A stretch of 64,000 bases of DNA from assembly GCA_949130485.1 (NCBI GenBank), contig OX422204.1:5146015-5210014 (forward strand). Direction: 5' to 3'. Both the position numbers and the translations under genes were made by a program. Below are positions 22,641 to 58,100 of this stretch, piece by piece. This DNA comes from Agelas oroides (taxonomy: Eukaryota > Porifera > Demospongiae > Agelasida > Agelasidae). Position 1 is the stretch's first letter; the number at the start of each line of letters is the position of its first letter. The notes beneath the pieces are model-generated. The model was not told the origin of the DNA. It saw only the letters and a program-made list of their open reading frames with translations, and made no database searches.

Positions 22641-24330
22641 TCACGTCTTCACTGGTATGACATAGTCAAGCTTCACCAGTTTACTGATGTGTAACTAAGT
22701 CACATAGTCAAGCTTCACCTACTAATGCATAAATAAATGACATATTTTTCAAGCTTCACCTGTTTACTGATGTGTAAGTGAATTACATCGTAAAGCTTCA
22801 CCCATTCACTACTAATTAAACTAAAACCCTCTTCAAGAGATGTAGGTATATTTCCTTATGAAACCTTGCCTATTCACATGCCGTCCAAATCCTTTTTTTA
22901 TTCCTAGTTATCGTATCAAACAGGTTTACTCACACAAGTTAACTCTTTAACAACCGTAGGCTGTTTACTGGAAGTGTTTATTAGGTTATGGATACCTTCC
23001 ACAGTCTGTATTTCACTACTGCTTGGAGCTAGCACTGGAAACTTGAGTCAAAGCTTTATTGACACATTCTCTGTGGGTTCCGGCATGACCTTGGCACACC
23101 CACTCATTAGCAAACATTCAATAGTCAGGGCCCTCCGACCAGAGAACGCTCCTCGGGGCTAATAGCAGCCTAAAATGCCAGAAATGAAGTCCCTACAAGG
23201 TGAAAGGAGTGTTTTCTACGCCTGTGTGTGCAACATTAAAAAAAAAGATAAAAAAAACAAACAGACAAATGGCCCACCCGGCATTGACCAAGGCTTTTCT
23301 ACAGGCAGCTACAACTGCCGCCATGCACCGTCAGCCAGAACGGTGCACCTACCCATCTCCCCCTGTCCCACCGTTTCTGCTAGTGCAGAACCCATCTTCA
23401 AAACGTATTGTGCCAACTGCAGCCAAAATCTGATGACGCCAAAAGTCGTCATCAGTTGTTAAGGTAGGACTACCTTGAATCAAAACGTAGTTACCTTCAC
23501 GTCTTCACTGGTATGACATAGTCAAGCTTCACCAGTTTACTGATGTGTAACTAAGTCACATAGTCAAGCTTCACCTACTAATGCATAAATAAATGACATA
23601 TTTTTCAAGCTTCACCTGTTTACTGATGTGTAAGTGAATTACATCGTAAAGCTTCACCCATTCACTACTAATTAAACTGAAACCCTCTTCATAGAGATGT
23701 AGGTATATTTCATTATGAAACCTTGCCTATTCACATGCCGTCCAAATCCTTTTTTTATTCCTAGTTATCGTATCAAACAGGTTTACTCACACAAGTTAAC
23801 TCTTTAACAACCGTAGGCTGTTTACTGGAAGTGTTTATTAGGTTATGGATACTTCCACAGTCCCTATTTCACTACTGCTTGGAGCTAGCACTGGAAACTT
23901 GAGTCAAAGCTTTATTGACACATTCTCTGTGGGTTCATGACCTTGGCACACCCACTCATTAGCAAACATTCAATAGTCAGGGCCCTCCGACCAGAGAACG
24001 CTCCTCGGGGCTAATAGCAGCCTAAAATGCCAGAAATGAAGTCCCTACAAGGTGAAAGGAGCGTTTTCTACGCCTGTGTGTGCAACAAAAAAAACCACAA
24101 AAAAAAAAACAGACAAATGGCCCACCCGGCATTGACCAAGGCTTTTCTACAGGCAGCTGCAACTGCCGCCATGCACCGTCAGCCAGAACAGTGCACCCAC
24201 CCATCTCCCCCTATCCCACCGTTTCTGCTAGTGCAGAACCCATCTTCAAAACGTATTGTGCCAACTGCAGCCAAAATCTGATGACGCCAAAAGTCGTCAT
24301 CAGTTGTTAAGGTAGGACTACCTTGAATTG
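22641..24330. repeat. Tandem duplication, two near-identical units of about 856 bp
   Basis: TCACGTCTTCACTGGTATGA begins both units, at 22641 and 23497. The units differ by a few substitutions, small deletions (GATACCTTCCAC against GATACTTCCAC) and a variable A-rich run. Each unit itself contains a 40-60-bp AAGCTTCACC repeat and ends with a short hairpin, CTGATGACG and CGTCATCAG, followed by GTTGTTAA. A third, diverged and inverted copy lies at about 59325-59760, which suggests the unit is a mobile element. Confidence 0.85.
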
Positions 24331-28782: not shown

Positions 28783-31701
28783 TTAGTGCATATAATATTG
28801 TTTAAGTGAATGTTTAAAAGTTGCAAGGGAAGGAGATGAAACAACTGATTCTGGAAGTGAGTTCCAGTGTGATACACAGTGAGGGACAAAAGAATTTAAA
28901 AAACAATTAGTATGTGCAAAGGGCTGGTACAAGGTAAAAGGAGTGCTTGTGTACGATCTAGTGACTTTAGGTACAATAATATTAGGTGGAAAATAAGACA
29001 AGTTGTGCACAATTTTGTACAAGGAACATAGTTTAAGGTACAATCTTCTGTCTGCAAGAGAGGGCAAGTTAGTCATGTTCAGAAGCTCATCATAGCCTTT
29101 GTCCCATTTTCTTGTGATCATTTTACACGCAAATTTCTGTGTGCTTTCAAGTAAATCTTGATCTTTTCTCAAGTGTGGGTCCCAGACTGGTGCTGCATAC
29201 TCCATGTGGGGCCGTACAATGGATATATATAGTTGGCGAAGAGTATCCTGGTCAGCGTGCTGGTAGAATCGACGGTACAATAGGCCCAAGATTTTCTTTG
29301 CCTTTGTGCATGCTCCTTCAATATGTTTTGACCAAGACAGGTCAGATGTGAGCAACAGGCCTAAATACTTAAATGTAGGGACACTTTCCAGTATTTGGCC
29401 ATTGATAGTTATCATAGGGGGGTTATTTATCCTGTTACGCTTGCGTGAGATCAGCATAAACTTGCATTTGGAAGGGTTGAGAGACATGTGGTTACAATTT
29501 ACCCAGTCCTGTACTGTGTTGGCATCTGATTGCAGGTATGAATAGTCCGAGTTTGAGAGAATGGTGCGATACAAAAGAATATCATCTGCATACAAAACGA
29601 TACGAGTTCCAGGAGAGAATGGGCCATAGGTAACATCATCAATGTAGATGAGAAATAATAAAGGACCCAAAATTGAGCCCTGTGGAACTCCTGAGACCGC
29701 ATACGAACTTGCAGACTTTGTACCACCCACCACAACACTCTGCCTCCTATTGGCTAGGTAGTTATGTAGCCAGGTCATGATATAGGGGTCCAGGCCCAGG
29801 CCCATGAGTTTTGACATTAGAGGCTGATGAGGTACTCGATCAAATGCCTTTTCAAAGTCAAAGAATATTGCACCAATCTCATTCCCTGCTTCAAGTTGTT
29901 GCAACCAGTCATGGGTCGTGCTGATCAATGCAGACAAAGCAGACTTGTTTGGTTGGAAGCCCCATTGACAATTTGATAATGGGTATTGCTCAGATAGATG
30001 GTCAGATATGAGCATGTGAAAATGTCTTTCTAGGACTTTACTCAGGACTGACAGTAGGGATATGGGCCGGAAGTCTGAGGGAGACTTTGCCCCAGGCCGC
30101 TTCGGAATGGGCACTACATAAGAAACTTTCCAGTCCTTGGGGAGCTGACCAGTGCGAATTGAAAGGTTGAATAATTCAGTCACTGAGGGTGCTATAGCAC
30201 TAGCAGTATGCTTCAACATGCGGGCAGAAATGGCATCAGGTCCATTAGCCTTTCCAGTGTCCAGTTTCTGCAACATATGTTGGACTTCCTCAACAGTGCA
30301 AAGAATGTCAGGGGGACATGTGTACACAGCTTCATCATTAGACGGTAATGGGGATATCGGAGGAACAGTGTGATTAAAGCATTTGCTAAAGTAGGAATTC
30401 AGTACATTGGCTTTTTCTGGATCAGTGCAATACTCAGAACCATTGTGGTTTAGAGTTGGTATGGAAGATGACTGTTTATTGAGATATTTAAGAGAGTTCC
30501 AAAACTGCTTACTGTTTGAAGGGTTCAATTTTCAGAAGTATGCAGCCTTAGCACAGCGCATATCGGACACCACTTTATTTCTTGCATGCTTGAACTTTGC
30601 AAAATGAAGTGGGTTACCAGACTTCTTAGCCCTTCTGAATAGTGTATTTCGTCGTCGCATTGACTTTACAAGATTTTTGTTTAACCAGGGTAAGTTGCGG
30701 CGACGAGGTGGAAGTACTTTTTTGGGAATGCTTTCCTCCATAATTGACAAAAAGGTGTTTTGCCATTTCACCCAACAAGTATCGACATCATTTGATGTGC
30801 ATATAGTGTTCCACTCAGTGTTGTGTATCAATTCTCTAGCCTTGTTGAAGTCAGCATGAGCATAATGCCATACTGTCCTTGTGTTCTGGCCAGATTGCGG
30901 TGGTGGTGCACTTGGCTTCCAGTTTACCCTAATCTTGAGACCATTGTGATCCGAATTAGCAATGGGAGGGATAACACAACAATCCAAAATTTGGCTTGGT
31001 GAGGACACGAAAGCAAGATCAATGAGTGCAGGGTTACCGAATGGGCTAGTATGAGTACAACCATTCACAACCTGTGTCAAATTAAAAAGCTGGGAAATGT
31101 TACAAAGTTTTGAGTACATATGGTGTGAGGGATCATTAAAATTAATATTAAAATCTCCTAGAAAAATAAAATTACAAAACTGTGCAATATTCAAATTTTC
31201 CATGATCTCAAAAAGAGTATCAAAAATAAGTGAAGGAGCACTGGGTGGCTTATAAAAAAGAGCGATCCCAACTTTAAAATGATTGTGTCTAACAGAAATA
31301 GGTAAAAATTCCAGGTTGTGAGGTACATTGTTCTGAAGTTGTGAGGGTAACACATTCACAATGAGATTATGCTGGGCATACATGAGTACGCCACCACCAT
31401 GACGATTACGATCAAGCCGGTACAACTGGAAGCCAGGAAGGTAAATCTCATTGTCAGAGATATTATGATCCAGCCAGGTTTCAGCGATGCACACAATGTC
31501 TGGCTGATGTGTTTCAACCAACAAGCACAGTTCATCAAACTTAGGGATAAGGCTACGAGCATTAAAGTACATTATTGAAAGTGTACCAGTATTTACATGA
31601 TGACAGAGATTCAAATTAGAATTAGAATAAGAGGCAGGAGGGCTAAGGGGGTTAGGCCTAGGAGAGTATGTAGAACTTAGGTCAGAGCAAGCACCCTGCA
31701 T
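28783..31701 (-). CDS. LINE ORF2: APE endonuclease plus reverse transcriptase, one in-frame stop
   Basis: It starts at 31701, 14 nt after the ORF1 stop. The endonuclease part has MYFNARSLIPKFDEL, CIAETWLDHN, FLGDFNINF and the SDHNGLK catalytic end. The reverse transcriptase part has DFRPISLLSVLSKVLER, GVPQGSILGPLLF and the LYADDILLY active site, then the C-terminal WDPHL and HWNSLPE region. The only break is a TGA at 30532-30534 between the two domains, in the same frame on both sides. The total is about 972 codons. A full-length relative without that stop could still be active elsewhere in the genome. Confidence 0.85.
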
Positions 31702-31715
31702 GTGAGAGTTTACAG

Positions 31716-32687
31716 TTAATGATTGGACAAAAAAGAACTCTCACCGTCCTCTTGGCTGGTTGATTGGTGCGTTGTGGTATGAGCAATATCTCCTTCACTA
31801 GCCAAGTCATGAGTAGCAGAGGCGGAAACTGGCTGGTAGCAACGTTCTAGCTTCCATGATGTTGAGTTTTCAATATTCACCCATTCCTGTTCAAGGTTCT
31901 GGAGAACTGTCTCCTCGCCCCTTATGAGAAACCACCACCGAACTTCAGTGTTGCCTCTTTTCTTGAACTTCCTTCGTACCTCAACATTCTCAGCTACGGA
32001 TGTCAACCGTTGCAATGTAGAAAGTACAGTTCTGTAGGAACAACCTCGCATCGTCCCCCAGACTCTCCTGACACCATCCACAACTTGTCGGTTTTCAGCT
32101 GCACCATGGCCATCAGGTGAGGTGTTTGAATTAGAATGTGAACTCCCATCCCTTCGCTGCTTTGGACGTTTCACAGCCAGCGCCCTAACGCTGTGCCATC
32201 GCTGCTTCGTCTTCTCAGGCTCCGTTTGCTCCGTTTGCTGCTGGTCAGCCGCTCCCGAGCCTGGACGTGCTGAGCGACGCTTGCCACGATTTCTCTTCGG
32301 CTCAACAAGCTTCCAGTCGCAGCTGGATTTTTCGAGATCGTCTTTGCGTCCACAGTTAGGTTTGGCAGCTGCAGCCTGAGCAGTCGATAGTGCCTCCTTC
32401 AGTTGCGCTATCTCCAGCTTCATGGCCTCCACAGTACATAGTAGCTCGCTGATGCGCTCTTCTTGGTTGTCTCGGTAACAGCAGGGACAGCAGTATGGGC
32501 GGCTATCATCGATGATAGCTTTGTAACACTTCACACTGACGCTCGCACAGTAGCGGTGTAGCCATTGCTGGCATTTGCCGGCGCAGAAAAGAGCTTCGTC
32601 CTTGCCAATTGTCACAGGTTGGCAGCAGATACAGCAGGGTTCTTTTGTATCTGCGGTTTGTGAGCTTCTTTGCTTCTTAGGAGGCAT
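31716..32687 (-). CDS. LINE ORF1 protein with PHD-like zinc finger and coiled coil
   Basis: The protein has 323 residues and starts MPPKKQRSSQ. Residues about 18-75 hold CCICCQP, FCAGKCQQWLHRYC and CCPCC, a PHD-like finger. Residues about 78-110 form a heptad-like stretch (ERISELLCTVEAMKLEIAQL), followed by a basic Gln-rich part. ORF1 proteins of CR1-type elements bind the element RNA, and PHD-like fingers are known among them. The ATG at 32687 lies inside the second copy of the 34-bp repeat. The first copy adds an upstream ATG at 32721, which opens a short overlapping frame. Confidence 0.8.
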   Translation of the reverse strand: MPPKKQRSSQTADTKEPCCICCQPVTIGKDEALFCAGKCQQWLHRYCASVSVKCYKAIIDDSRPYCCPCCYRDNQEERISELLCTVEAMKLEIAQLKEALSTAQAAAAKPNCGRKDDLEKSSCDWKLVEPKRNRGKRRSARPGSGAADQQQTEQTEPEKTKQRWHSVRALAVKRPKQRRDGSSHSNSNTSPDGHGAAENRQVVDGVRRVWGTMRGCSYRTVLSTLQRLTSVAENVEVRRKFKKRGNTEVRWWFLIRGEETVLQNLEQEWVNIENSTSWKLERCYQPVSASATHDLASEGDIAHTTTHQSTSQEDGESSFLSNH

Positions 32688-32750
32688 TATAGTTACGATA
32701 CACTATGAGGAACCAAGGCATTATAGTTACGATACACTATGAGGAACCAA
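32683..32750 (-). repeat. Two perfect 34-bp repeats at the LINE 5' end
   Basis: GGCATTATAGTTACGATACA opens both units (32683 and 32717), and each ends GAGGAACCAA. On the minus strand each unit ends in ATGCC, so the ORF1 start codon sits in the inner unit. Monomer-like 5' repeats act as promoters in some LINEs; that role is inference here. Confidence 0.75.
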
Positions 32751-40167: not shown

Positions 40168-43100
40168 ATGTCAGAAAAAATCGAGTTGCAGTCTGAAGGG
40201 GACGATACCTCACGCACAGAGCAAGACGATACCACAGTTGATGCACAAGGAACTTCACCTAGTACTAAAGTGACATTGAGTCGGTGGAGGAAAATCTCCT
40301 TCACCGTGGTGACCTTGCTCTCCTACCTGTTCCTGAACGCTGGCGTCTCACTGGTCACACCTTTTTATGCTATTGTGGTCAGTTTCAATGTATCACCCAG
40401 GGGGTAGGACAAGCTCATGTGCACAAAATATCATATGCGAAAGTTGGTCAATAGCAAATAGACATATCATGGGAAACGGAAGGTGATCCTGGCCTGATTC
40501 TGGGGTGAAAATAGACAGGACAGCAAATAAATATTAAACTTATAGAGTGTGCTAAATCATGCATACAATTAATGACCTAAACACTAGACAGTCACATGAT
40601 ATAATTCTGAACTTGCCCTACTGCCTCTCCAATGTGCCTTTTGTCTGGTAATCTGGCAAGCCAGACCCGCTTCTGCAAGAAAGGGTCAAGTGAACTATGT
40701 ATAGGCTTTAACTGGATGATGTAACAGGATTTCTTGCTAGTGCACATGCCTCCGAGGTGTATATCCGAAATAATTTTTGCAGCTCTAGTGCAAAGGATGA
40801 ACTGGCTCTTTGTTGCTGCTTTCAAGATGGTTATTGCTACTCTAGCAATCATATAATGTCATGTGGCAACGTACTGTAACGCAATTGACTTCACCCTTTT
40901 TTAGCAGAAGTGAGGGTAGCTTTGATTCAAATTGGAAGCATCCCCTTGAATATAAATGAATTTAGATGTTATGAGGCGAAAATAGAGCAAGTGAAAAAGC
41001 CGGCAGTCACCAGGAGTCGAACCCAGGACACCTCTGGCTTGAGCCACCAGTGCTCTGCCACTGAGCCACAACAGCCGGACAACCACCAGCCCTCACAATC
41101 CTCTATAATATACTACACAGGTGGTACTGAATGCCTCAGTTGCACACCTGGCAGCCACTCAGTATGTGCCGTCAGAACTCCGTTGGGGGTCGACTGGAAT
41201 GTGGCTCAAGCCAGAGGTGTCCTGGGTTTGACTCTCGGCGACTGCCGGCTTTTTCACTTTCCTCTATTTTCGCCTCATAACATCTAAATTCATTTATTTC
41301 CAGCATGACGCAAGATGCTCTGAGCATCCCCTTGAAGTTTGTAATGTGTCCACTACACAACTGAGGTGACCAAAATATAGGTCGTATCTAATCACTGGAC
41401 TGGATTCTGGACTGAATTGCTGGACTGGACTGATGGACTGGATTATTGGATCAGTATTTGAACTGAATTTGCTCATATCACCTGACCTCTAGCCAATCAG
41501 AAGAGTGGACAGGTCACATGTTTTGTATCAGCAAGTACAATGCCCTATTATACAATGTCAGCTGTAGCTAACCACCATGGTTGCCCCACTTAAACAGGAA
41601 GTTGCTCAGGCGTGCTCTGCACAACATTCAGTACTTCTAAGATACAAACACATGCTGAAAAAGTTATTGGTGAAGTTTTCTGTTTGTTTTGAAGTGGCTG
41701 AAATTGTCTAGAAGTAGTGAGACCATGGCCATGCAGTTCATTCATAATAAGTTGGGGGTCTAGTGCCCCCCCCACACACACACACACACACCCAGGGAAA
41801 TTTTCAGCCACGGTTTTTCCTAATGCCTTGCTGCATGTGAAAGATAAGGTTACATGGTCTTCATCCATGGAGCAGCTTGGTAAGCCCGTTGACTCTACTG
41901 TCACTAGTCTATTTCCAGGCCTCTCAACACAAACACTTTTCTAACAGATGATACCTGGTACCCTTTTACTCAATCGACTGTCCCTTATGTGATATGCATG
42001 AACAACCTAATGTTAGTTCAATGTTTTGCTGTTCAACAATCCAGTCCGTCAATCCAGTCCAGCAATCCAGCCCAGTGATTAGATACGATCCAAAATATAG
42101 TTGAGTGTTTTTTTACAGTGTGGCTAATCAGTAGTTTTTGGTCCCAGGGGTGTCATATTAGAGAAGTTCCACAGTAATTCTATACTAGGATGAGGATGCA
42201 GTAAGAGTGTGCAACTCTCATATGGTTTCTACACCTGCCATCTGGACAGTATGATGTAGGCAATCAGCAGTGAATATGCTTAGTGAGTGCTTAACATGAA
42301 GCCATTCTAGGTGCAAGTATACATTAGCTCAGTGAACACTGTAGGAAAAGCCTGCCTCTATGCTGCTGTGTTTTCACAGCTTAGTATATTCACTGCTGAT
42401 TGCGGTACTTCATACTGTCCAGATGGCAGGTGAAGAAACTGGGTGCTAGTTGCACACTTTTACTGTAATAAACTCTTGATTCTAGTAGGTGTGGTGCAAG
42501 TGCTCAGTTAATAATTGACCATGCCCCTCATTTGCACTCACAATAACAAATGTTGGATGTATACCAATGTCAATGATAGCAATTTGAGGCTAGTCTGCTT
42601 TTAAAGACAACTGGCTGCTAAATTTTGTCACATCAGAGGCCTCTCAAAGGGCACAGTGCCCAGTGTAGGCACCTGTACGTTATGACCAACTAATTATGGT
42701 ATTCCCAAATATCTAGCTCATTGTCCCTGGAAAAAATACCATATATGCTTGAAATTATGCTATATGGAGCTGTGTGGAATATAGACGACTGAGTATTGAT
42801 ATGGTTGGTGATGCTGCAAGATTCAGACTCAGAATGTAGATGCTGGCTGTCAATCACTTGATTCACCGTCGGCTGAGCTGGAACTCATGTTGTAGTCTAT
42901 TCAGCGACTGATGGTTTTGCAACAGCACCTCTAGCCTCATGTGACAACTTTATTAATTGTTCCATTGTTCTCTGTTGAAGTATTGTGCTCCAAATTTTAG
43001 GAATTATGTTTGTATGCTTCCACCTACTATGTATTCTCAAAATTATGCCAGCTAGGCTAATGTACACCTTCTTAGTCCTTTGTAAAAAAAACCCAGTGAG

Positions 43101-46100: not shown

Positions 46101-49100
46101 GAGCCATTCTTGTACATAGCTTGTATGCATGCTTCTTGACCTTGGAATGTCTCTTAATTGTTGCTGTCACATGACTGAGGCTACCTCTACAATGTAGTAC
46201 ATTATTACTGCTCAAAATCAGTAGAGAAATCCCCCTCATTTTCTTGTTCCCACACAGGCACAGCAGCACCATGTTGCAACCTACATTTCTGGGTTTGTTA
46301 TTGGCACAGCGCCACTATGCATCACTGTGATGTCTCCTTTGATTGGATACTTTGTAAGTACCACAGCAGTTGTACATTATGCTCTGTGGTCATCTGAACT
46401 GCATCCCGAGATGCGTAACAGTAGCTAGCACTTCAACTGAAATGATAGCTTTGGCTAGAAAAGTTTTACTGTGTATTAATAATATCCCAATACCCCGACA
46501 CACATGCACAAACAAGATAATGGAAAAATAGTGATTTTGTATCACGATGATTCATTGAACCAGAGGAGGTTGGAAGCTAGTAATTAGAGGTAGCCATTAG
46601 TGCTACGTGAATGACGTAATCCTACAGGCTGTGATACAAGTCCATAGTGAAAGGTGAAATTGATTTACGCAAACAGCTTTTGTTTGTTTGGGACGAAACT
46701 CACTCAGTGGATACTGCCAGGTGAGCTCTAGATCGACCACTATGGCATTTTATGATGCTCAGAATTTTCTGCGAGGATTCCTAAGGAAACAATTAAAATG
46801 CTTCGCATATAAGGAAGAGATATGGCACTCTTAGATATTGTACTCTTCACATCTAGATACGGCACTCTTCACATCTAGATACGGCACTCTTCACATCTAG
46901 ATACGGCACTCTTCACATCTAGATACAGCACTTTTCACATCTAGATACGGCACTCTTCACATCTAGATACGGCACTCTTCACATCTAGATACGGCACTCT
47001 TAACATCTAGATACGGCACTCTTCACATCTACATACGGCACTCTTCACATCTAGATACGGCACTCTTCACATCTACATACGGCACTCTTCACATCTACAT
47101 ACGGCACTCTTCACATCTAGATACAGCACTCTTCACATCTAGATACAGCACTCTTATGCAGTTTCTATGTGTGAAGAGTGCAGTATCTAGGTGTGATCTT
47201 CACACTTAAATACTGCACTGTGACTAAAAGGGTGGTTATGTTGCTCATTTATTTTGCATCAATAATCTTGACAACCACCTAGCAACAGGAAATATATGGA
47301 AAATCTTACCCACCTGTTACTATAGAAACACAAGCTAGGGTGAAGTGGACATTATCTTACATCACATTGATTCTTACAACATGTGTGTGATTCACATCTT
47401 GGAGTGTAACTACATGTTTGCAACCATCCATCCTACAGCTTCCTCACCTAGGAGTGAAGTTCACACAGCTTGCTGGTCTGCTGTGGGGAGGAGGAGCTTT
47501 CTTTCTGTTCGGGTAACACACATCTACATGTACAATGTGGCGTTTAAAATTATTGCTACTGTGTATAGCCTTGTTCCCAGGCCTTCCCCCCATCCAGTTT
47601 TTGCATGTATTTTATGTTCTGTGCATTGTCTGTTTGTAATGCGTCTATCAATGTTATGCTGCACTGTCCCCAGTGAAGGCTATAACTATATAATGAAGTA
47701 AAAGAGCCGAAACTAGGAGTCAGAAGTTCTGAAGTACGTAGCTGGCAAGCTAAACTTGAATTTAGCCTTAAGCTTCTGTCGAACCCTTTACGGACTGTAA
47801 TCCATGTCAGGTGTGCCATGAATGTCAGCATAAGGCTATGAATCTCATTAACACCTTTAGCTTGAGGTTTGGCTTATATGAACTAATGGCCTGCAAAGAC
47901 GGTACGTGACAGCCAAGTCTGTGTGATAAGCCTTTACTGGACACAGCCTGACTGTATCAGTCGCCAGGGTTCTCATGAATATCATTAAATGGCTGCTTTG
48001 TGGGCTGGTTTGGTCTCTCATTAAAACATCAAAATTCAGGGCAGGCGTGATAATCAAACCCTCTCGCAGTGGGTGGAAATTACTAGGGATTTGACACATG
48101 CAGTGTAGCTATGCAGTATACAGAGAACATTGCCATATTCAAGATGTCTTCGGAGGTAATCAAATTTCCGACTATAGGGCAACATTTTTCAGTCAAACCC
48201 TCCTGTGCTGCTCATTATCTGCCCATACACACACATCTACATGTACAATGTACAATGTGGCGTCTCATTAATGGCCTGCAAAGACTGGTGAGTATCATAG
48301 GGCATAAAATTGATAGGCGCATAAGTTCACTGTTTTTTCACCATACGTAGGTTTGTGTCCGTAATGCCGACGCCGGTGTTGTTTACAGTGTTCAGCTTCT
48401 TACTGAGGGTGGTGGATGGTACCGGCACTGCCATGTTCATGACAGTTTCATACACACTACTGACACAGTCCTACCCTGAGAAGAGGGGCACAATTGTTGT
48501 AAGTGATATTACAGTGGAACCCACTATAGCGGGTCACCATCGGGAATTAACATTTTGTCTTTTAAAGCTGTTGAGCACAATTAATGTGGCCATGTTTTCA
48601 GAGCGTTCCTTGCTGTACACTATGAGCAACATGCAGTTTATAAAAAGCTGTATTTTTTATTACAAGTCACACGAAAATACTACAAGTCATGTGAGGATCT
48701 GTATCAGGTACTGCAAGTCACGCATGCTACATCTGAACGTGCAATGAAATTGAAGGTTGTGTGTCGAGTGGGGGAGCACCAACACCAGCTGGCATATCAA
48801 TGTTCATCATGTGAAAGTTTTTGCACATACATGAAGTGTGAAGTTAAAACATAATGGGATATGGGGATGGGGCATTCATGGTTTGAATGGGTGGGGCATT
48901 TATGGCTCAAATGGGTGGGGCAGTTATGGCAAAGTGGGTTATTTTTTGGTGGGGGGGGGGGGGGGGGAGATGTGCTCGAAAACACTGGTCTTCAGGGGAG
49001 TATCCTTTCCGGTTCTCTCATGACCATGGGTTTTGGTCCCTTTGAACTCCCGACCCGTGGCCTACTGCAGAGAGGGTGGGACCACTCCCCGCCTAAAGTT

Positions 49101-52100
49101 TGCTTTGAGGAGCCCAGCTGTTGGTTGGCATTCACAGTGCTATGAATATTCAACTTACTAAACAGATTGGGGGTGGGGCTCAATGGATGGAGTTATCGTA
49201 ATATTAACTAGGGGGATGGGCAAACCAACATATGGACTTTTGCTGTCGTCTCGTCTTGGTAGGGCATCTGGGAGGCTTGTTGTTTGATGGTAGGTATTCC
49301 TGTACCGAAGATTCTTTTGCTGGACATTCATGTCTTTACTGCGGGGACTTTCTCGCGGTGCATATCCTAGTTTTAAAGATTAGTCAATTTCTGGCTGTTT
49401 TGCCAAATTTAATGCTTGACAATATTTCCCGTTATACAGTAATTATCGCCATAGTACAAAGCTGTACCGGAAAAAATATCACTCATTTGTTGCCATTGGC
49501 ATTGTTACCCGTGCTGCGTACTCGTAACAATACAGATGGAAAGAAGTCGTGATTATTTTCCAGTGTAGCTTTGTACTGAATTGACTTATTTTGGCAAAAT
49601 TGATATTTAGTGAAATGTCACAGAATTAGATGCACACGATTTAAGAGCTTACCCCGTGAGTAACCACGTTCACCGAAGACGCTTAGTGTGAGAAAAGACA
49701 CTTGAAAAGATGGACGGCGAGACATATGAAGTTGAAGGCTCTGTCCATGACCATCACCTTTTCAATCACGTCTGGAGTCCCCTTGATTGGCGAACAGTTA
49801 GTCTGCCAAACAGATGTAAGCAATACCCGGGATGTGTATGTGTGGCAGTGATGTGTGTGACAACAATTGCCCCAATTGTCGGCCATGTTCCCAGGAAGAT
49901 ATCAGCAGCATGTATGATTTTCTTGGCTCACTGTAACTCCTTTTTGGCAGTAGAGGTTGACCCACACATAGTGTAGAAACAGCAGGCTGTTCTTTCTTCT
50001 GGAAAATTTGTACAACGCCATTGTTAGCTCAGTTATCAAGGATAAGCATACTTACATATGCAATATTGTCACCTAAGATCTACACATATGTTGATGGATT
50101 TAAATTTGGCGGTTGATTTTCAATCGCCAAATCACCAAATTAAGACAATTCCCACCGTATGCTATACATTATTTTCCCTGATTCATGTTCAGGGGACTAC
50201 ATGGCTTTGTGTGTGTAATTTTTATTTGCATTAATTGGTCCTCATTGTATGGTCTTTCTGTACAGGCTTTGCTGCAAACCACATACGCTATGGGGTATGC
50301 AATGGGACCTGTAATAGGAGGAGGACTCCAGGAGGTGAGTAGCTCTCAATTACTATGGGAGACATAAGTTGACAAGGAATGTTTTGCCCTGCTTTGTGTA
50401 GCAGCAACATTTCAGTATTACGGTCTTTAGTCTCGTGGTAAGGACCAATGAGATTGAAAGATTGCTAATTAATACATAGCACTTCCCTTACAGCAGTGAA
50501 ATTTTGCCTGTCTACTTGCACCCAATTGGGTATCCGAACATTTTTTGAGTGGGTTAGTTTCACAAGTTGCAAAAGCATGTGCTAGCACAAGAAATTCGAC
50601 AGGGTTCACATGTACTACAGGTTTTGCTCATGAGAGTGTGGGGCTGTGCACAAGGTGCTTCCACAAATTAACACTTTATGACCACGCCCCTCACCTTGCA
50701 TATACCATAAAGCACGTATCAAGTACCCACCATGGAGCAAGCACTCACACCCCTGTTTTTGTTGAAGTTCCTGCACAGGGTGAAAATGAAATGTAGTAAT
50801 TAAGGTATCATTGCTGACACAGAGTTTTATCATCCAAGTGTAACAGCTAAATTTTGCCAGTATAGTTATCTCACAATTTAAATAACCTATGGGCACGAAA
50901 TAAAGGCCAACTTGTAGCTAAAGCCTCTCAATATTACATACCTACAAATCAACAAAAACCTCTCAGGGATAGCTACGCTAGCTCCAAGAAATAAAAACAA
51001 AAACACAAAAATATTTTACAATGGATAATCATTACGGTCAGCACATTTCGTACACACAGTTTCAATGTAGCACATTTTCGTATACACACAGTTTCAATAC
51101 AGCACATTTTTGTACACAGTTTCAACACAGCACAGCTACCTAGTTATTTCGCACGAGATGGCCTCTTCTTTGATACCCGAAGGTGACTCATGGCAAACAC
51201 ATGACAACTTTGTCAGTGTCTGATAAATTGTCTGCCTTTACAGTGTTCCTCGGTTCTCTTACGCATGTGTAAGAGAACTGAGGAACTGTGGTAGCCACAA
51301 ACGCAGCAAGCTGTTTGTACTCCACCTAACTACAACTATGCCTAGGAACGTAGAATCAATTGAAAACCGTTAAAAGATTTTCATGGGTATCGTAGACCAG
51401 GAAAATACTTTTACACAAAACAGTAAAACATGAAAATTTTACAACCTAAAATAGGACAATAGGGACAGGGTGTAGCAAACACTTTGGTACGATCCATTCC
51501 CTCCCATGGTACAGTGGGATGAGATGGACAGTAGGTACAGGGGGGTATGAATTGGGATGATCCCAGTCTATCTGTTTCCTCCATTTATACAGTGCGATAC
51601 AGTACCCAATGTGTCAATCCTTCCCATAGTACAGTGGGATGAATTATAGCTTGGGACAGTCCCAAAGTGTCCCCTTGTAGGACAGTCCCTTAGTGTAGAA
51701 CAGGATGGAATGCATAGTTGGCAGACACTAATCCCTAAACACATTTTGGGATTCCCAATGTACATGTACCATGGACGTCTGTTGGCAATCCTAGACATGT
51801 ATACCTGTTTTTGCCATCATTTTCTTGCTTGCCTAGGTTGGAGGATTTTTGCTTCCCTTTCTGGTAGTCGGTGCGTGTATTCTTGTCCTGCTGGTGGCCT
51901 TAATGATTCTAGTACCACCAACAGGTATGGCCTTTGCATAAGCTAGCTATTTATGTTTATACAGTGATTGCTGCATTCGTATATCGTTGCAAATGTGTTA
52001 TGTGACAATTCTGATACCCAAATCTGATATATGAAAGTCTTGCTTGTGACCTCTTTTATTCTGTTTGCCATGTAGATTGTGTTAGTGAGAAGGTGTTGCC

Positions 52101-55100
52101 ATGGCGACTACTGTTGACGCTTTCTAGTAACATTATGTTTGTCTTACTAGGTAGGTTACTGCCATTTCTAACTAGGGAGTACATGTAGTTGTGGGAGTAA
52201 GTGAGCAGGTGCCTTCTCATGCTGTATATAACCTCGTTCCCAGTCCTTCCCTGCATGGCTTCAGTTTTTGATCACTTGCAGTATGCAAATACAGAGAGCG
52301 AAAGCTTGAGAGATCTCATCATGATGTCAGGTAGAAAGAGGGTAGACAGACGAAGGGCACTGCCTGATGCTGTAACTCATAAACATATATTGTGTTGTTC
52401 GAGTCTACCGAACAATGAACTGTATTGACACTGTCTTTCAAACGTTACAGTCTCAAGTTTTTTCACAAGATATTACAAGAAGGTCTTTTTTGGGCACCGT
52501 CCCCTGTCTGCCTATCATTACATCACACATCACTGTGCATGTGAACACTGTTTTTGCATACTGGAAGCAATCAAATCTGGACGGTAGCGAAGGCCTAGGA
52601 ACCAGGCTATACCTATACATCACAAAATTTGCAGTGGATAAGTTTTCGTGTATTTCGCAAGTTGGTCTGCACTTGCGAAATTAACCACAAATTACATGTG
52701 CTATGCATGTTCATACACAACGGATACACCATTGATGCTGTTACAAGTTGCAAAAATTAACCACGGCAACGGCATCCTAATACTGTACTTGCGCCTAGGC
52801 ATTCACCCATCACTAGTGTTGACTTGTTTTTCACACTGTGGCTTCTTGCATTTCAGTCTGTCAGAAGTGTGTGTATGGCAGTCCCATGTAGAAATCATTC
52901 CGTCGCATATTTTGTTGCATTCAAACTGCCGTAATGCTGAACTTCTGTTAAGGGTGGAGCTCATACACGCTTTGTTGATGCTTTACATGTTCATGTATCC
53001 GCAAAGCATGTATGAGTCCCGCCCTTAATGGACGTTCAGTGGTACAGCGCATCAAACGTGGCAATGTAATCAGAATATATGACGGAATAATTAAGCTTCG
53101 AATTGTACACAATACTCATGCATGTGTGCATTTCTTTCACAGTTCTATCACTCATGCTGATGAGAACTGCTATGTGTGCTGTTTTTGCATATTTTGGACA
53201 CTATCTTTACATGAAAGTAAGTTGAAGATATTTTTTCATAATTTATACTATTACTTTGAAACAGTTTTGGTAGTTTAGGCAACAAACTTACTGAAGAGAC
53301 ATTGGATATACCACCTCTACGAGGAGTAAAAAAACAGTGGCGTAGGAAAGACTTTTTGATTGGAGGGGCACGGTTTGAAACTACACATAGAGTAGTGAGC
53401 AATTTATATTACAATTATGAAAACTTGGGGGGGCACATGCCCCCGGTGCCCCCCCGGTTCCTACACCTATGAAAAACACACTCTCAGTCTCTACCCTATA
53501 CGGTGAGTATAGGTACGTAGTATATCCAATTTATACCACATTGAGACAGTAAACTATGACTCAATTTATACCACATTGAGACAGTAAACTATGACTCAAT
53601 TTATACCACATTGAGACAGTAAACTATGACTCAATTTATAGTTTTATACCACTTTGAGACAGTAAACTATGACTCAATTTATAGCACATTGAGACAGTAA
53701 ACTATGACTCAATTTATAGCACATTGAGACAGTAAACTATGACTCAATTTATAGCACATTGAGACAGTAAACTATGACTCAATTTATACCACATTGAGAC
53801 AGTAAACTATGACTCAATTTATACCACATTGAGACAGTAAACTATGACTCAATTTATACCGCTTTGAGACAGTAAACTATGACTCAATTTATACCCTTTG
53901 AGACAGTAAACTATGACTCAATTTATACCACACTGAGACAGTAAACTATGACTCAATTTATAGCACATTGAGACAGTAAACTATGACTCAATTTATACCA
54001 CACTGAGACAGTAAACTATGACTCAATTTATACCACACTGAGACAGTAAACTATGACTCAATTTATACCACACTGAGACAGTAAACTATGACTCAATTTA
54101 TAGTTTTATACCACTTTGAGACAGTAAACTATGACTCAATTTATACCACATTGAGACAGTAAACTATGACTCAATTTATACCACATTGAGACAGTAAACT
54201 ATGACTCAATTTATACCACATTGAGACAGTAAACTATGACTCAATTTATAGCACATTGAGACAGTAAACTATGACTCAATTTATAGCACATTGAGACAGT
54301 AAACTATGACTCAATTTATAGCACATTGAGACAGTAAACTATGACTCAATTTATACCACATTGAGACAGTAAACTATGACTCAATTTATACCACATTGAG
54401 ACAGTAAACTATGACTCAATTTATACCGCTTTGAGACAGTAAACTATGACTCAATTTATACCGCTTTGAGACAGTAAACTATGACTCAATTTATACCACA
54501 CTGAGACAGTAAACTATGACTCAATTTATACCACATTGAGACAGTAAACTATGACTCAATTTATACCGCTTTGAGACAGTAAACTATGACTCAATTTATA
54601 CCGCTTTGAGACAGTAAACTATGACTCAATTTATACCACACTGAGACAGTAAACTATGACTCAATTTATAGCACATTGAGACAGTAAACTATGACTCAAT
54701 TTATACCACACTGAGACAGTAAACTATGACTCAATTTATACCGCTTTGAGACAGTAAACTATGACTCAATTTATACCGCTTTGAGACAGTAAACTATGAC
54801 TCAATTTATACCACACTGAGACAGTAAACTATGACTCAATTTATAGCACATTGAGACAGTAAACTATGACTCAATTTATACCACACTGAGACAGTAAACT
54901 ATGACTCAATTTATACCACACTGAGACAGTAAACTATGACTCAATTTATACCACACTGAGACAGTAAACTATGACTCAATTTATAGTTTTATACCACTTT
55001 GAGACAGTAAACTATGACTCAATTTATACCACATTGAGACAGTAAACTATGACTCAATTTATACCACATTGAGACAGTAAACTATGACTCAATTTATACC

Positions 55101-58100
55101 ACATTGAGACAGTAAACTATGACTCAATTTATAGCACATTGAGACAGTAAACTATGACTCAATTTATAGTTTTATACCACTTTGAGACAGTAAACTATGA
55201 CTCAATTTATAGCACATTGAGACAGTAAACTATGACTCAATTTATACCACATTGAGACAGTAAACTATGACTCAATTTATACCACACTGAGACAGTAAAC
55301 TATGACTCAATTTATACCACACTGAGACAGTAAACTATGACTCAATTTATACCACACTGAGACAGTAAACTATGACTCAATTTATACCACACTGAGACAG
55401 TAAACTATGACTCAATTTATACCACATTGAGACAGTAAACTATGACTCAATTTATACCACACTGAGACTCAATTTATACCACACTGAGACAGTAAAAACT
55501 ATGACTCAATTTATACCACACTGAGACAGTAAACTATGACTCAATTTATACCACTTTGAGACAGTAAACTATGACTCAATTTATACCACTTTGAGACAGT
55601 AAACTATTACTCAATTTATACCACATTGAGACAGTAAACTATGACTCAATTTATACCACACTGAGACAGTAAACTATGACTCAATTTATACCACATTGAG
55701 ACAGTAAACTATGACTCAATTTATACCACACTGAGACAGTAAACTATGACTCAATTTATACCACACTGAGACAGTAAACTATGACTCAATTTATAGCACA
55801 TTGAGACAGTAAACTATGACTCAATTTATAGCACATTGAGACAGTAAACTATGACTCAATTTATAGCACATTGAGACTGTAAACTATGACTCAATTTATA
55901 CCACACTGAGACAGTAAACTATGATTCAATTTATACCACACTGAGACAGTAAACTTATAATCTCCAACCTGATGTCCTAGCTTGTTGTTGTCTACAGTAC
56001 CAGTAATGAAAATTGAATTCTAGGGGCAATACCTCAATCCTGGTAGCAAACTACAATTTTAGCGAAACCAGTATCAGTAGATAGAGCGTTAAAAGAGCTA
56101 CAAAATGATAGGCATTTCATTAGGCTATGCCTTACACTGTTGTAAAAACTAATACAAACATTTAGAGTATCGGTACGGTTCTTTATGATATTGCGAAGTG
56201 AATTCTACTAGCACAGCACTTGCACTTAACAACTTGCTGACAAAAAGGGATATCATATTGTAGGTCTTTAGCGCTGTATCATGTATATGTTATATCTTCC
56301 TTGGAACTTGTAATTGCTGTGGATAGCCGTTAAAATTCAATTTTCATTACCGGTACTCTGGACACAGTGTATTAGTAAACATACAAACATTGCTTTTTAT
56401 GTGCTTTAATTTATTGTTGTGATACTTGGAGAGGATGAGTGCTGGTTTGTTTAGCCCCGTATCCGACACGGTTTTGTTTTGCTGACAAACTTCAGCCTAT
56501 GGCATATACCCCTCTCTTCCTTCTCATACACAAAGTGGCTACATACAATAACGGAGGAGTTGTCTTTGCTAACAGATAACCCCTGGCGTTGTTAGCTACT
56601 GGTGTTGGACAGTTCCCATACCTAACATTCTAATTAAAGAGCCATTAAAAATTACCATACTTTTGACACGACCAGCATGACCAGGCTGCAAGTACGTACC
56701 TTGTATTTACCAAGGTATTCTACCACAGGTAGCTATGTATAAAAGGGGAGATGAGAGCCCAGTAGTGAGAACTAGCTACTGAAGATGTCAACTGTCACCA
56801 TGCAGCTAAATGACAAGAACTACGTAAAAAAGTAGCTGCCACAGCAAGGAATACACAGAGAACAACATTACTAACACTGCCGATGCCGTAGCCCAAGACA
56901 AAATACACATGCTGTGATGCGCTTGCACGGAATTTGTAATTTTGTGGGTTTAACTTCCATTTCGTTTCGTTTCACCAACACCCCATACAATCAGATTTTA
57001 TGCACACTTGTGTATAAATAATGAAGTTACTGTAAACACTAAGTGATGTGTTTACAGTAATAACCACAAAGGACCAATCAGGTGGGATATATGACAGTTA
57101 TAGCACAGGTGGCCAGGGATTTATGGCTGTTAGTAAACAATCCCTCTCCTCGGGCTATGCGGTCTGTTTGCTGCCATACATGTAAATCCCTGGCACTGTG
57201 CTATAACTGTATGTAACTTATCCTGTCATTGTTTTTGTTCTTCCAAACTGCAGTTTCATCTCAGCTTTGGCATCATCGGTCTTGTGTACCTTGGTTTAAC
57301 AGGAACGTACGGAATCGGCACCATTACTGCTGGACCAGTAACTGATAAACTGGTAAGATTTTTCACTAGTGTAGCTAAGTATTGTATATATACATGTACA
57401 ACCTCATGAAGAGTATAACAACTGCCAACTCTCATGTATTTTGCATGAAACTTGCACACTTAGTATCTACCTCACACTCACACACATTGAAGCCAAAATC
57501 GTACGATGCACACAAAGTGATTCGCAATGCCAGACCACACTCCTAGACAAGGCTAAATCATAGGTGCACTACGTGCACGCACTAGATAATTTGGTAAAAT
57601 AAGAAAAGGCTAAATCATGCATGGGGTAAAACACCGTGAAGCTAGCCAACAAAAGTAAATATAGAACCAAACCAAGGTAAATCAAAGATATTGGAGATAG
57701 CATTATATCATCATAATAATTCTACAGTGTGGTATTATGTCATACTTTCACATGTCTTACACATAAAAAAGGCCTCTATCTCACTCCATTTTGTGACACA
57801 TCTCACTCATTTGCATGTACTGAGGTTGGCACCTTTGGTAAAAACACAGATATACTCCTCTAGAAGGGATGTAATGTGGTAGACGATAGCTTGTATGTAC
57901 ATGCAGACCCATTTCTGAGCATCCAGTTTTCAGGTATTACCGTAGTCTGGCAAAGAGCGCCTACCTACTTTTGGCCCAATTTCCTGTATAGGGTTAAAGT
58001 TTACTCTAATGAATGCCTACTCTAGAGCAAGCTTCATGTGGCTAATGAAACACACTCGTGGAGTTTTGAGAAGCACATCTGAGGTAAGAAACTTCATGTT

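Follow-up and report, generated by a model that had tools for sequence, protein, structure and literature searches.

A 35-bp minisatellite with TGACTCA in nearly every unit in the sponge Agelas oroides, very probably derived from a single member of a dispersed repeat family

Introduction

Internal pieces of short transposons are described as sources of satellites and minisatellites in the available text of two papers (PMC4079207, PMC9659126), the arrays Tetris and TIR-220 of Drosophila virilis being given as transposon-derived examples (PMC4079207). The accessible sections of the review among them (PMC9659126) present microhomology-mediated joining as one route by which duplications form. For minisatellites, a unit size range of 10–60 bp is given in the available part of PMC10027321, which also states that tandem repeats, including promoter repeats, can alter transcription-factor binding.

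We analyzed a window, i.e., the whole 64-kb stretch C22:5146015-5210014 of the Agelas oroides genome, with own-genome searches that covered 259 Mb in 141 contigs. The window contains an array of 35-bp units, nearly all of which hold TGACTCA, the AP-1/bZIP consensus. This array is an ordinary minisatellite of a known kind, and its origin is well documented. We consider it very likely that it grew out of a dispersed repeat whose founding copy carried TGACTCA, at a position that is probably within an intron of an SLC18B1-like gene.

As with Tetris and TIR-220 in the text available for them, a piece from inside a short dispersed element would have become the tandem unit, and the array would then have grown and been homogenized. 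Unlike those arrays, insofar as that text describes them, the present one has a 35-bp unit, is found at one locus only and is probably intronic, and no class or transposase source was found for its repeat. Like the promoter repeats treated in the available part of PMC10027321, it offers a large number of equal, regularly spaced sites, here candidate binding sites; it differs from them in showing no sign of site-specific constraint and in lying outside a known promoter. Our literature search found no paper joining minisatellite, AP-1, TGACTCA and tandem, and the papers that it returned on AP-1/bZIP in sponges served as background only.

Results

Architecture of the array

In the 64-kb window, TRF reported one array at this locus, with a period of 35 bp and 68.8 head-to-tail copies, which places it within the minisatellite size range (Table 1). 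Units were defined by splitting the array at CAATTTATA, which gave 69 units, the last of them partial at the array edge. Unit length is 35 bp in 62 cases and 43 bp in four, with one unit each of 34, 22 and 37 bp. The units fall into types A (19 units), B (18), C (13), D (7) and E (the four 43-bp units) and eight singletons, which include the 34-, 22- and 37-bp units and the partial last one. One run of ten units, ACAAAEBBBC, is present twice with its order unchanged and is evidence of multi-unit duplication; no repeated run of ten or more units appeared in 2000 shuffles of the unit order, where the longest was eight.

A first-pass annotation, made from the sequence alone, had anticipated much of this architecture. 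Its estimate of about 65–70 copies of a 35-bp unit agrees with both counts, its statement that nearly every unit holds TGACTCA is borne out by 65 exact sites across the 69 units, and its four longer joints fit the 43-bp units listed in Table 1. The recurring blocks that it noted are real, and the multi-unit duplication that it drew from them is backed by the repeated ten-unit run.

Table 1. Positions, within the 64-kb window, of the array, its parts and the features flanking it.
Feature	Position	Strand	Basis
Open frame with probable SLC18B1-like exon, upstream of array	48325..48747	+	MFS_1 E 0.017, below its cut-off
Final recognized transporter exon frame before array	51837..51938	+	Hydrophobic frame; SLC18B1 match of joined pieces
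Left hairpin arm of founding copy	53301..53328	+	blastn with family majority sequence, 92.9% over 28 bases
168 bases of other sequence, with C/G-rich stretch, interrupting founding hairpin	53329..53496	.	Gap between family matches
Right hairpin arm, first unit and start of second	53497..53567	+	blastn, 88.7% over 71 bases
35-bp minisatellite, 69 units (last one partial), 65 TGACTCA	53527..55955	+	TRF and unit splitting
43-bp unit, type E, first	53632..53674	+	Unit lengths
Ten-unit block ACAAAEBBBC, copy 1	53919..54276	+	Unit-type string, unit starts
43-bp unit, type E, second	54094..54136	+	Unit lengths
Ten-unit block ACAAAEBBBC, copy 2	54802..55159	+	Unit-type string, unit starts
43-bp unit, type E, third	54977..55019	+	Unit lengths
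43-bp unit, type E, fourth	55160..55202	+	Unit lengths
Open frame with first recognized transporter exon after array	57137..57409	+	Weak collinear SLC18B1 match of joined later pieces

Probable intronic position in an SLC18B1-like gene

Hydrophobic plus-strand frames are located before the array, at about 40.1, 46.2, 48.3, 50.2 and 51.8 kb, and after it, at about 59.9, 61.8 and 63.6 kb, with a further frame at 57.1–57.4 kb. These frames were picked by eye as transporter pieces and joined, with splice sites unchecked. All pieces joined matched Pfam MFS_1 at 2e-9 and the SLC18B1 fusion construct 9d7u at 4.3e-10, the matched stretch lying in both cases within the pieces before the array. The latter pieces alone matched SLC18B1 at 1.3e-8 over chain positions 323-423. 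The pieces after the array aligned collinearly with chain positions 476-573 at an E value of 0.63, which is not significant alone, and an unrelated protein ranked ahead at 0.3; the first recognized frame after the array matched no Pfam family by itself. As judged from these frames and matches, the array likely lies within an intron of an SLC18B1-like gene.

The unit belongs to a dispersed repeat family

When a 140-bp piece of the array was searched against the genome, 40 of the 179 candidates were scored, and all counts are accordingly lower bounds. The matches numbered at least 65, of which 26 lie in the array and at least 39 elsewhere, most of the latter about 41 bp long. On many contigs, blastn placed the 35-bp unit within dispersed repeats that hold it as a single copy. 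We retrieved 22 of the 39 dispersed places, in 20 stretches (loci), and aligned 21 copies, leaving out the one at L009, whose match was shorter than 30 bases. The aligned copies define a short repeat of about 220–270 bp that consists of a left hairpin, followed by CAATTTATACCACATTGAGACAGTAAACTATaACTCAATTT and then by a right part ending near AATGTGGTATAA. Of the 21, 17 contain two CAATTT hexamers at a distance of 35 bp; because resemblance to the array guided the selection of the copies, this fraction may overstate how frequent the double hexamer is.

A longer copy used as query returned 649 first-look candidates, which indicates that the family is large, and gave at least 48 matches with 40 candidates scored. 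Near-full-length copies (23 blast rows, 21 distinct places) share a common right end by eye; of the marks of a MITE (short DNA transposon), clear target duplications were not seen among these rows, which represent copies with near-complete coverage of the reference. The reference, L014:1953-2172, is without part of the left end, which weakens any check for terminal inverted repeats. Seven frames of at least 30 residues overlap the repeat at L014, the longest of 104 residues lying mostly outside it, and on the evidence of this one copy the repeat appears to hold no gene.

Internal tandem duplications were detected by TRF in 8 of the 20 loci. At L009 (37 bp, 4.1 copies) and L010 (34 bp, 2.0 copies) the duplicated unit is without TGACTCA, so internal duplication does not need this site; a 21- or 22-bp duplication lies to the right of the core at L012, L015, L018, L019, L025 and L028. 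L038 and L045, on different contigs, have an identical 25-base right flank, and the duplicated stretch may therefore exceed the repeat.

The exact pattern TGAGACAGTAAACTANNACTCA has 202 matches in the genome, 64 of them in the array (63 with TATG and one with TATT). Among the 138 outside, 81 read TATAACTCA, 3 read TATGACTCA and 54 have other states; such exact-pattern counts miss diverged copies, and at least one further TGACTCA copy (C20:1792731), with a mismatch elsewhere, falls outside the three. In the 41 copies of a longer exact pattern, whose site states were transcribed by hand before counting, the site base is A in 23, C in 14, G in 3 and T in 1. As far as these matches go, TGACTCA is a minority state in the dispersed family, one base away from the common states.

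The probable founding copy and the joint between units

A copy of the family lies at the left edge of the array and continues directly into it (Table 1). Its hairpin is interrupted by 168 bases that are probably a nested insertion. The locus thus has both a flank that matches the repeat and a unit that occurs as a single copy in family members, as expected of an origin from the dispersed repeat. Outside the array, the right part of the repeat had no match in the window at E 0.01 (blastn), a point against this origin. Joining the second CAATTT of the repeat to the sequence that follows the first gives exactly the joint between array units. A genome-wide search for this exact joint, ACTCAATTTATACCAC, gave 41 matches, and all 41 are in this array.

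We hypothesize that a copy of the dispersed repeat stood in the probable intron of the SLC18B1-like gene and that its 35 bp were doubled by slippage or by end-joining across the 6-bp CAATTT microhomology. More slippage and unequal exchange, at times involving many units at once, would then have brought the array to 69 units. The founder would have had TGACTCA, while most family members appear to have TAACTCA or TCACTCA, and the units would carry TGACTCA because the founding copy carried it. In this clean worked case, a single genome suffices to show a minisatellite's single-copy form, its microhomology and its joint.

Conservation of TGACTCA does not exceed that of the unit's other invariant stretches

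The array accounts for 65 of the 76 TGACTCA matches in the window; 100 whole-window shuffles gave a mean of 13.7 matches and a maximum of 24. An intact site is missing from four of the 69 units, namely G, where 13 bases are deleted, J, L and the partial M. Among the 35-bp units (62 in all), variants common to several units are confined to columns 10, 12, 14 and 15, and the remaining columns are invariant or altered in one or two units. Outside this patch, single units have substitutions at columns 22 (K), 32 (J) and 34 (L); with the partial last unit left out, the J and L changes fall within TGACTCA and the K change outside it. Read as a circle, the unit comprises 35 7-mers, 19 of which are intact more often than TGACTCA with its 65 copies. 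At least 65 intact copies are found at 23 of the 35 positions, TGACTCA included, and the 12 with lower counts are those touching the variable patch.

The first-pass annotation had held that the site was kept while other positions drifted. The 7-mer counts contradict this, and the implied contrast between the site and the rest disappears in the alignment, where nearly the whole unit is invariant outside the six-base patch and TGACTCA there varies as much as the other positions do, an outcome that the annotation itself had named as refuting its claim. Neither these counts nor the position of two of the three off-patch substitutions inside the site supports a selective keeping of TGACTCA, a reading that was rejected. 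With few independent mutations in the array, a weak preference for TGACTCA may nevertheless exist. The annotation's own reserve, that recent expansion might explain the sameness of the units, is supported: we infer that the units owe their uniformity to the youth or homogenization of the array, and not to selection on TGACTCA. Even where almost all units of an array share an unbroken motif, this alone is no evidence of selection, since a founding unit with the motif and a young or homogenized array suffice to produce it, and the array probably lacks function.

The confinement of four shared variable columns to six bases has a probability of 0.0068 under random placement and speaks against a simple expansion picture. 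Inheritance of the patch variants from family diversity was considered and rejected: of 44 copies outside the array, retrieved with a pattern that excluded G at the site, 43 have CCACAT and one has CCACAC. Given this near-uniformity, an origin of the variants within the array is probable.

Alternative readings of the array

In one alternative, the array would be an enhancer: selection would maintain it as a homotypic bZIP-site cluster, to which many AP-1-type dimers would bind and thereby raise expression of the transporter gene. Such a role would suit its 65 exact sites, their regular spacing and their probable location inside a gene, and units with a broken TGACTCA were never amplified; however, neither was the K change, which lies outside the site. 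Two further findings oppose a selected cluster: the unit's other invariant stretches are preserved at least as well as TGACTCA, and, with the last unit disregarded, two of the three off-patch changes seen in single units lie in the site. Genome-wide, triples of TGACTCA, defined as three sites at gaps of 10–40 bases with overlapping starts counted apart, number 595, of which 59 come from this array, vs 724 for the reversed word used as a control. Unusual enrichment of TGACTCA clusters was accordingly rejected, and an enhancer under selection is very unlikely.

A more elaborate scenario would have a TGACTCA that arose by chance, was multiplied to 65 by microhomology and now, in some individuals, provides the transporter gene with a length-variable, stress-responsive bZIP platform; we give this scenario, built on the sequence, even less credence. 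Smaller again is the chance that the array is an unselected sink, or decoy, that titrates a bZIP protein by putative binding. The 65 perfect sites within 2.4 kb would lend themselves to titration, but 536 of the 595 triples (about nine-tenths, counting triples and not single sites) lie outside the array, which is therefore not the sole such cluster. Least probable of all is the arrival of an unrelated satellite, by movement or insertion, as a ready-made array. No point was found in its favor; against it, no second locus with the exact joint was found in the genome, and the array is continuous on its left with the repeat's own hairpin arm.

Other TGACTCA clusters and neighboring features

Another long array, with units of 36–38 bp and TGACTCA in each listed unit, was found at C2:23016864-23017856. 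A separate dispersed repeat, on contigs C1 and C2, has two to three TGACTCAGC sites about 42–43 bp apart (TGACTCAGCAATATACTCCC...) and was seen at about eleven places among the matches listed (first 100 places). From its sequence, it is perhaps a better candidate than the array in the window for putative mobile bZIP sites.

Within the window, Rfam gave a single match, which is tRNA-like (41002-41075). On the minus strand, 28783-32702 holds a non-LTR retrotransposon with frames for reverse transcriptase and endonuclease and, upstream, a cysteine-rich frame that matched no Pfam family. One 42-bp array is present twice, at 22660-22802 and 23516-23658; the two lie 856 bp apart, which indicates a local duplication, and TGACTCA at 23044 and 23900 has the same spacing. 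Between two of the transporter frames, at 46842-47155, lies a further array with a 22-bp unit (14.3 copies, 96% matches). Directly to the right of the 35-bp array, a 42-nt inverted repeat (55989-56030 and 56323-56364, 83% complementary) is perhaps another small mobile element.
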